Source: Bacillota bacterium | Lineage (GTDB): Bacteria > Bacillota > Limnochordia > DTU087 | Direction: 5' to 3' | DNA length: 43,412 nt | NCBI GenBank assembly: GCA_012518315.1 | Contig: JAAYSL010000172.1 | Coordinates: forward strand, 1 to 43,412 | In this document: one piece after another, positions 1 to 2,367 of the stretch | Position numbering within the stretch: position 1 is the stretch's first letter | How the letters are laid out: every line of letters starts with the position of its first letter | Made by a program: the position numbers and the translations under genes | The notes under the pieces: generated by a model | What the model was told of the DNA's origin: nothing | The model's database searches: none | The model's input: the letters and a program-made list of their open reading frames with translations, nothing else

Positions 1-433
1 GCCGCTTAACCCAAGTTTCTACATTAGCGACACGACTGGCAAGTGAAGGGGGAAGCCAACCCTCGGGCCTACGTCGATTGGAGAAACGGGGTTTCCGATA
101 ACGTGTTTTACGAGATCGTCTTGCTCGCCTGAGTTGGCGACGGGATAAAAGCGCACCTTGAATCTGTTGCCCGCGGTGGCTCAATTCCGCCGCGAACACA
201 ACTCTACCATTCTTATCATCAGCGATGGCTAGGCCGGTCACTCGGCTGCCCGGGTCAATTTTGAGCCGAAGTGATGAAGGTGCCACATCAGGCACTTCAC
301 GTTTCAGAATAATAGTAAAAGGATATCGACGAAATACTGCCGCCTTACCATCTCGAAGCAGCTGCCTGGCCCTAGCGGGATGACAAGGCTGCAAAGGCCT
401 TTTCTTTGTGTCTAGTACAAATACTTTACTCAT
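1..433 (-). CDS. iscB: IscB-family OMEGA RNA-guided HNH/RuvC nuclease, N-terminal part (truncated by window edge)
   Basis: Manual reverse-complement translation from ATG at 433: MSKVFVLDTKKRPLQPCHPARARQLLRDGKAAVFRRYPFTIILKREVPDVAPSSLRLKIDPGSRVTGLAIADDKNGRVVFAAELSHRGQQIQGALLSRRQLRRARRSRKTRYRKPRFSNRRRPEGWLPPSLASRVANVETWVKR... Shows a PLMP-type N-terminal domain (PLQP), RuvC-I (LKIDPGSRVTGLAI) and Arg-rich bridge helix. Open to the window edge, so not in the ORF track. Confidence 0.9.
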   Translation of the reverse strand, partial: MSKVFVLDTKKRPLQPCHPARARQLLRDGKAAVFRRYPFTIILKREVPDVAPSSLRLKIDPGSRVTGLAIADDKNGRVVFAAELSHRGQQIQGALLSRRQLRRARRSRKTRYRKPRFSNRRRPEGWLPPSLASRVANVETWVKR

Positions 434-665
434 AACGAGTCACTCCGTTCGGAGGTAATGTTTGCCTCGCCAATGTTATCGGGTGGTTTTATATGTGACC
501 AGCACTGACCTATACCCTCAGTCTGTTTAGCTGGTCACCGCAGAGTTCGGAGCTGGCACGCACCCCGAAGTGCCTACATATTCACCCATAACGTAGCCCT
601 CGTAGGGCTTAGGCTGGTCAACACGAGCTCTTACAAGCTCACGACTTTAGTCGTGGGTAGTTGAC
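434..665 (-). ncRNA. Putative HEARO / IscB omega-RNA, including the transposon end
   Basis: About 230 nt noncoding directly upstream of iscB with nested inverted repeats: 640-646/649-655 (cacgact/agtcgtg), 625-629/636-640, 595-600/604-609 (agccct/agggct), 495-503/530-538 (gtgaccagc/gctggtcac), 443-447/450-454 (ctccg/cggag). Position and architecture match HEARO RNAs upstream of IscB. Confidence 0.75.
640..665. mobile_element. IS200/IS605-type terminal hairpin and element end of the IscB element (other end outside window)
   Basis: cacgactttagtcgtgggtagttgac: small imperfect palindrome near the tip of the element, characteristic of IS200/IS605-type ends; near-identical copy at 28669-28694. Confidence 0.6.
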
Positions 666-680
666 AACTCGCATCTAGAT

Positions 681-721
681 GGGCGCAAGATAGCTATCAC
701 AACGATAGAAAATATGCGCCC
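681..721. terminator. Two-tier hairpin downstream of FGGY kinase, possible terminator without clear U-tract
   Basis: gggcgca(681-687)/tgcgccc(715-721) outer stem, gatag/ctatc inner stem. Confidence 0.35.
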
Positions 722-843: not shown

Positions 844-2367
844 CTAGCCAAGCTCGGCTAGACGGTGCAGCTGACTTTTGAGAGCTATGTAGCTATCAAG
901 ATAAAGCTCGTATAACTCATCATACAAACTTGTATTGGCCTTAGGCTCATACCACTTCCTGATTTGACCCATCTTTCCTAGTGCCTCCCGCCAGTTTGGA
1001 TAGGCACCCACCCCTATTCCTCCTAAGAAGGCTGCCCCAAATACTGTACCATCATCTATACTGGGAACTCCAAGAGGTAACTGGGTAACATCGGCCTTAA
1101 TCTGGCACCATATCTCGCTTTTGGCACCGCCACCGACACTGATCAAATGCGATGGTCTAATCCCTGCTTGAGCAGCCACCTCCAGATTATGCCGGAGGGC
1201 AAACGCAGCACCTTCCATAAGAGCTCTGATTATGTCAGCACGTTTCTTTTCGTAGGAGAGTCCCAAAAAGACTCCCCTTGCCAGAGGATCCCAGATAGGC
1301 GTTCTCTCACCGGCCATATATGGTAGAAATACCAATCCACCGGCACCAGCCGGTGATGTTTCAGCCTCTTGGCTAAGCAGCTCAAAGGGATTTTGTCCAC
1401 CTGTAAGGGGCAGGCCTGCACCCCCAAAAGCCAAGACTTGATCATAAAACCAGCCCAGGACTCCACCACTGACTGTCCCACCAGATAAGTGCCACAGCCC
1501 TTCTATCACATGGCAGCCACTAATTAGCCGCAAGTCTTTATAGGGGCGATCAGTAACAATGGTCATCCCCCCTGCTTGGCCGGCCTGTTCTTGGGTGGCA
1601 CCATGCCAAGTCAACCCAGCTCCAAGACAAGCAGCAGCACAATCCACTCCTCCAGCTACCACCGGGGTACCCGGCAATAGGCCAGTGGCAAGGGCGGCCT
1701 GGGAGGTAACCTCCCCAACTATCACCCCTGATTCGTATACATCGGGAAGCAATCTGTAGTCAACTCCCATGAGCTTGCATGCTTCCGGTGACCAGTTGCG
1801 TTTATCTGTATCAAACACATAGTAACCATAACCCTGGGAGACATCCTGGGTAAATACACCGGTTAGCTTGTATACAATGAAGCTATTTGATTGCAGAAAT
1901 TTATAGGTATCAGCATAGATTTCAGGTTCGTTATTTCTAATCCAAAGCATCTTGGGCACGCAATAGGCAGGATCTATCCTATTGCCACTAAGATGGAGTA
2001 CGTATTCCCCCCCTACCACTTGCTCTAGATGTTGGCACTCCCTAAGTGACCTTCTATCTAGCCATAGCATAGCATGGCGGAGGGGGTTGCCTTGGCGATC
2101 CACAGGCAATGTCGCCCAGCTATGACCCACAACCCCAATAGACGCTACATCCCTGGCACTAAAAGCACCAGCATCTAGGAGCTCTCCGATACACAGGCAA
2201 ACCGCTTGCCACCACCAGTTCCCGTCTTGCTCTGCCTCATAGGCCTTGTCTCGGATGATCTCGTAAGCTTGAGTGGCCGTTCCCAGGGCTTCCCCCGCTA
2301 AGGAAAAAGCGCCCACTTTGCAGCTAGATGTACCGATATCTATTCCTAAAAGGACGTTCTTGGGCAT
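844..2367 (-). CDS. FGGY-family carbohydrate kinase (xylulokinase-like)
   Basis: ORF; N-term LLGIDIGTSSCKVGAFSLAGE, GGVDCAAACLGAG and GGGAKSEIWCQIKADV motifs of FGGY kinases. Confidence 0.88.
   Translation of the reverse strand: MPKNVLLGIDIGTSSCKVGAFSLAGEALGTATQAYEIIRDKAYEAEQDGNWWWQAVCLCIGELLDAGAFSARDVASIGVVGHSWATLPVDRQGNPLRHAMLWLDRRSLRECQHLEQVVGGEYVLHLSGNRIDPAYCVPKMLWIRNNEPEIYADTYKFLQSNSFIVYKLTGVFTQDVSQGYGYYVFDTDKRNWSPEACKLMGVDYRLLPDVYESGVIVGEVTSQAALATGLLPGTPVVAGGVDCAAACLGAGLTWHGATQEQAGQAGGMTIVTDRPYKDLRLISGCHVIEGLWHLSGGTVSGGVLGWFYDQVLAFGGAGLPLTGGQNPFELLSQEAETSPAGAGGLVFLPYMAGERTPIWDPLARGVFLGLSYEKKRADIIRALMEGAAFALRHNLEVAAQAGIRPSHLISVGGGAKSEIWCQIKADVTQLPLGVPSIDDGTVFGAAFLGGIGVGAYPNWREALGKMGQIRKWYEPKANTSLYDELYELYLDSYIALKSQLHRLAELG

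Follow-up and report, generated by a model that had tools for sequence, protein, structure and literature searches.

An omega-RNA of the HEARO family belonging to an IscB element at the start of a dehydrogenase gene

Introduction

What is the function of the structured noncoding segment that precedes an iscB gene at the end of a Limnochordia contig? IscB is a transposon-borne RNA-guided nuclease and an ancestor-type relative of Cas9. The segment occupies the minus strand of positions 434-665 of the window (the whole stretch of 43,412 nucleotides that was analysed), between an FGGY carbohydrate kinase gene and the ATG of iscB (433-431). The window starts at the end of contig C35 of the genome under study (G000) and therefore opens inside iscB; its edge is an assembly break. 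An initial annotation had described the segment as structured and noncoding, likely a HEARO/omega-RNA, and both its coordinates and its stems were confirmed. The locus is the HEARO/omega-RNA of IscB, and it is part of a mobile element that interrupts a dehydrogenase gene at its start.

Table 1. Features of the locus and of its continuation on contig C204 (window positions unless a contig is named)
Feature	Position	Strand	Evidence or remark
iscB N-half (PLMP, RuvC-I, bridge helix)	2..433	-	PF14239, E 3.8e-57; NF040563 positions 1-141; exits contig end
iscB C-half (RuvC-II, HNH, RuvC-III)	G000:C204:61129-60326		At contig end; NF040563 positions 152-314
Terminal hairpin CUCC-GAAC-GGAG (454-451/446-443)	443..454	-	Directly 3' of the Rfam model; covaries in 15 loci
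HEARO/omega-RNA scaffold (RF02033)	455..665	-	cmscan 151.8 bits; 59/67 pairs; covariation, 26 loci; begins at the element left end
3' strands of nexus stem (473-469/610-614) and nexus pseudoknot (466-464 GGC/557-555 GCC)	463..473	-	26-locus counts
9-bp stem of the initial annotation (538-530/503-495), with extension to 504-526	495..538	-	HEARO helix
Predicted omega-RNA guide 5'-CATCTAGATGCGAGTT-3'	666..681 (window 681-666)	-	Host DNA outside the element left end
FGGY carbohydrate kinase	844..2367	-	Pfam FGGY_N/FGGY_C; upstream neighbour, host gene outside the element

Results and discussion

The scaffold matches HEARO over its full length

The whole window was compared with Rfam 15 by cmscan, and HEARO (RF02033) was the sole match above the gathering score. 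The match covers all model positions (1-211/211), with an E-value of 3.9e-32 and a score well above the cut-off of 83 bits. Together with the adjoining iscB gene, this full-length match bears out the proposed family. The model proper, however, accounts only for 455-665; the remainder of the span that had been assigned to HEARO consists of an extra conserved hairpin (443-454) and the spacer to the ATG (434-442), both of which lie outside the model. An HNH endonuclease gene follows directly downstream on the same strand, with 21 nt between the end of the model and the iscB ATG, and 29 related loci of other organisms likewise have HEARO at this position before iscB.

The fold of the scaffold has been maintained through changes in sequence. 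In 15 of the consensus pairs that are standard, both bases differ from the consensus. An alignment of 26 HEARO loci contains two-sided changes in 45 of 62 pairs; no shuffle matched any of the measures, and a shift of the partner by one to three columns approximately halved the paired fraction. The gtgaccagc/gctggtcac stem that was noticed initially is indeed a HEARO helix, with all nine pairs standard; in five of these, both bases differ from the Rfam consensus. Folding energy is much less telling than the family match: the minus strand of 434-690 folds at -90.8 kcal/mol (z = -2.7), and one of 200 dinucleotide shuffles was equally good. On energy alone, which is modestly unusual, one might argue for an intergenic region that folds by chance, but the full-length covariance-model match and the compensatory changes refute this reading and leave it with practically no probability.

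The pairs of the nexus pseudoknot form in 97% of the cells of the 26-locus alignment, with exchanges between GC, UA, AU and CG, and the nexus pairs 613/470 and 612/471 show double changes. The counterpart of these strands in the OgeuIscB omega-RNA is C93-C96/G155-G158 (PMC9640706).

The ctccg/cggag hairpin reported about 10 nt before the ATG (443-447/450-454) is present and covaries, but it has four pairs, since five would leave a loop of 2 nt, and it lies outside the Rfam model. Over 15 loci its cells are paired in 77% (51% when shuffled) and 17 cells carry double changes as compared with 7.0 (a level reached by 0 of 500 shuffles); shifting the partner reduces the pairing. The RNA thus has the nexus pseudoknot and the terminal hairpin of an omega-RNA, both covarying, and the latter matches the position of 'terminal hairpin 1' in the solved OgeuIscB omega-RNA.

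The GGAG of the terminal hairpin, 9 nt before the ATG, is likely the Shine-Dalgarno sequence of iscB. This location, and the covariation of the hairpin, would also fit a segment that acts mainly as a cis-regulatory 5' UTR, in which the hairpin hides the Shine-Dalgarno sequence and translation is coupled to IscB binding (autoregulation), besides or instead of a guide function. In several relatives (L083, L067 and L069 among them), however, the Shine-Dalgarno sequence is found further downstream, beyond the hairpin, so its hiding is not conserved. Moreover, in OgeuIscB the PLMP domain binds the terminal hairpins of the omega-RNA within the RNP (PMC9640706). We consider a mainly regulatory role very improbable.

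The neighbouring gene encodes an IscB and is split by a contig break

The neighbouring open reading frame had been taken for iscB, and both of its halves exceed the cut-off of 175 bits of the NCBIfam equivalog NF040563 (N-half 202.8 bits, C-half 224.6 bits). The halves are split across contigs C35 and C204, with approximately ten codons missing at the break (model positions 142-151). In the relative G004 the genes for the kinase, the dehydrogenase, gnd and zwf are located on a single contig, whereas the same genes are distributed here over C35 and C204; this gene order supports the junction of the two contigs. Read from the two pieces, iscB may be an intact open reading frame. Disruption of the gene by an insertion or by pseudogene formation was considered and set aside: with about ten missing positions and the gene order of G004, the simplest explanation would be a mere gap in the assembly.

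The motifs LKIDPG (RuvC-I), SMELVKFD (RuvC-II), VEHIVP (HNH) and HWIDALCVG (RuvC-III) are all present. In alignments to solved IscB chains, the RuvC-II glutamate and the HNH histidine line up with an OgeuIscB-type chain, and the RuvC-I aspartate was also aligned. The HNH domain encoded on C204 (PF01844, PF14279) rules out IsrB, the HNH-less relative. The genome contains one copy of iscB.

The element ends and the empty site

The element spans about 1.5 kb: the omega-RNA occupies the left end, iscB comes next, and the right end carries a subterminal hairpin. We placed the left end at 665 because approximately 30 HEARO loci, with few exceptions, begin with GTCA, while the sequences upstream of it are all different. 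The right end follows the hairpin GCCGA-TTCTCCCCACGACTAAAGGCGTGGGCTCCC-TCGGC just past the iscB stop codon, and the subterminal hairpins of the left end (CCCACGACTAAAGTCGTG) and the right end (CCCACGACTAAAGGCGTGGG) are similar.

An uninterrupted junction between kinase and dehydrogenase was found in five relatives (G001, G004, G005, G007 and G008), whose homology to the dehydrogenase of the genome under study begins at residue 23-24 of the latter. The corresponding bases of the empty site are GTGAGAGTTGTAGCAATTCAC in G004 and ATGAGAGTTGCGGCAATTCAC in G001. When the left flank (ATGCGAGTT) and the right flank (GTGGCAATTCAT) of the element are joined, they encode M-R-V-V-A-I-H, in line with the dehydrogenase start M-R-V-V-A-I-H-G in G004 and M-R-V-A-A-I-H-G in G001; the exact empty junction sequence would be ATGCGAGTTGTGGCAATT. 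Since the flanks rejoin into the start found in the relatives, the element was placed after codon 3 of the zinc dehydrogenase gene, inserted without target duplication, at a junction that is ambiguous by a shared GT. Insertion without target duplication is also characteristic of IS200/IS605, and subterminal hairpins and a target motif beside one end are likewise present here. As part of an overall explanation that we regard as very probable, the element belongs to the IscB elements of IS200/IS605 type.

On its upstream side the dehydrogenase frame reaches into iscB, whose 3' end contains in-frame ATG codons that may act as starts, so the insertion has left the frame open. On contig C204 (L005 5233-5193) this overlap adds about 22 N-terminal residues that derive from the right end of the element.

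A predicted guide and target-adjacent motif

The guide of OgeuIscB measures 16-17 nt (PMC9640706), and this length was adopted here. With the insertion after codon 3 of the dehydrogenase gene, the predicted guide becomes the sequence given in Table 1, followed in the empty site by GTGG. The first three codons of the interrupted gene, ATG included, fall within it. In agreement with a guide at the 5' side, conservation ends at 665, and the left and right flanks together rebuild the junction of G001 and G004.

Based on its location to the right of the guide in the empty site, GTGG is predicted to be the target-adjacent motif (TAM), and it is compatible with the NNRR of OgeuIscB (PMC9640706). GTGR recurs beside the right end of about 15 related elements: a script located it 5-14 nt past the right-end stem in 14 of them, and inspection by eye added L081 and further elements; the script failed for most cyanobacterial elements and misplaced the stems in L074, L076, L094 and G054c, which were judged by eye. 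In host windows of similar size GTGR occurred in 9 of 48. We also considered GTGG as a part of the element itself, which is unlikely, as its removal would shorten the conserved start of the dehydrogenase relative to the five relatives; the constant length of that start marks GTGG as host DNA.

A second exact target of the guide is absent from the genome under study, the best other sites having two mismatches, as expected if the genome holds no empty allele. Additional genomic targets were discarded, since such matches were about as many as those of a reversed control pattern.

The proposed role in retention of the element

The most likely role of the RNA is to direct IscB to the empty site that excision leaves behind, where IscB would cut. 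The 16-17 nt of host DNA outside the left end would be transcribed as the 5' guide, and IscB, bound to the scaffold, would be directed to the guide sequence followed by GTGG. This combination exists only where the element is missing, that is, in a site re-formed after excision or in a sister or allelic chromosome without the element. A cut at the empty site would favour repair from the element-bearing copy, and the element would thereby be retained or spread. Such retention is established for TnpB and IscB elements; Altae-Tran 2021 and Meers 2023 are reportedly the papers on IscB discovery and transposon retention. We are highly confident of the reading as a whole, in which positions 665-443 (minus strand) encode the omega-RNA of an IscB element that takes its guide from the flank and is retained in this manner. 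Our direct observations are the RNA family with its structure and covariation, the identity of IscB, the element ends and the empty site, and from these we infer expression, guide use, TAM, cutting and retention.

No sigma-70-like promoter was detected in positions 1-900 of the window, hence transcripts may originate in the upstream operon. The element contains no TnpA, and a TnpA (Y1) transposase would work in trans. Full-length TnpA was not found in the assembly, only N-terminal stretches matching PF01797, two of them at contig ends. At the ends of contigs C209 and C274 (L164, L165) there are two almost identical left ends of the IS200-like type, in which a Y1 transposase gene begins but is cut by the contig end. 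These copies are probably broken by the assembly and may supply TnpA in trans.

Alternatively, the element might be dead or domesticated, the RNA being a HEARO leftover, a host cis leader of the operon or part of an RNA-guided repressor, without nuclease activity. The single iscB copy and the missing complete transposase would fit, as would a second HEARO without iscB (37.5 bits) upstream of a thrS T-box leader, which indicates that decay does occur in this genome. A long-dead copy, however, is expected to have lost its structure, motifs and ends, whereas here 59 of 67 pairs are kept, the protein halves are open with the RuvC-I, RuvC-II, HNH and RuvC-III motifs present, and the TAM-like GTGG and the element ends are intact. 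We therefore consider a dead or domesticated element improbable. Because the dehydrogenase start codon falls within the guide and the 3' end of iscB provides an in-frame start, it is also conceivable, but hardly to be expected, that element, omega-RNA and operon form a regulated unit with a partly domesticated IscB, beyond self-retention; the level of IscB would then be set by the hairpin that hides the Shine-Dalgarno sequence. Our preferred reading remains an RNA that guides IscB to the empty site.

Comparison with known systems

With other HEARO (RF02033)/IscB omega-RNAs the RNA shares the full-length match, the position directly upstream of iscB, the helices, the nexus pseudoknot and the terminal hairpin. 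The guide adaptor is shorter than in many relatives and the terminal loop is GAAC, where many have a GNRA-type loop; otherwise there is no substantial difference. The OgeuIscB-omega-RNA complex (PDB 7XHT, 7UTN; PMC9640706) likewise has a 5' guide, a nexus pseudoknot and a terminal hairpin, its scaffold being 206 nt as compared with about 220 nt here, and both proteins have PLMP, RuvC and HNH domains. The similarity of OgeuIscB to the C-half of the present IscB is distant (phmmer 34.6-37 bits), and the TAM (GTGR) is a prediction here.

Comparable elements occur in Peptococcaceae CEB3 (L068), Alicyclobacillus (L085), Fermentithermobacillus (L069) and cyanobacteria; there, too, HEARO and iscB are followed by a right-end hairpin and then GTGR. 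The IscB C-half is 62-71% identical to those of L068, L085 and L069; the guides and insertion sites differ in all of these elements from those found here. TnpB with its omega-RNA (IS605/IS607) is likewise a transposon-borne RNA-guided nuclease with a guide from the flank. TnpB is not known to have an HNH domain, and its RNA lies 3' in the gene, at its end, whereas the RNA described here lies 5' of the gene.

The kind of system is thus already known, and what is new is the member itself with its predicted guide and TAM. A known family, the picture of which is unchanged, thereby gains one further compact RNA-guided nuclease. The system is a well-delimited IscB-omega-RNA whose guide and TAM (GTGR) are predicted and whose empty site can be seen in relatives, so that guide use and retention are directly testable.

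Other HEARO copies in the genome and its relatives

The second HEARO of the genome is degenerate (G000:C240:20498-20701; L002 1501-1704, minus strand; L006) and over 167 nt shows 83% identity with the HEARO of the window. Immediately downstream of it come a T-box leader (117.6 bits) and a gene identified by its sequence as encoding threonyl-tRNA synthetase, and a promoter-like TTGACA..TATAAT follows the broken 3' end of this HEARO. In the relative G006 (contig C55; L154 403-459), the first 57 nt of HEARO directly precede a T-box leader (104.9 bits); the open reading frame after this leader starts, as we take it, like an isoleucyl-tRNA synthetase. This neighbourhood, seen twice in one family, may be due to chance or to HEARO ends being taken up near T-box promoters.

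The relative G054 contains about a dozen HEARO copies, and no RRXRR/IscB match was found in its genome. Four of the copies are complete (L147, L148, L150 and L151); they are more than 91% identical, measure approximately 370 bp and have both ends, different flanks and a GTGGTGA-like right end. These four are small non-autonomous elements with one omega-RNA each.
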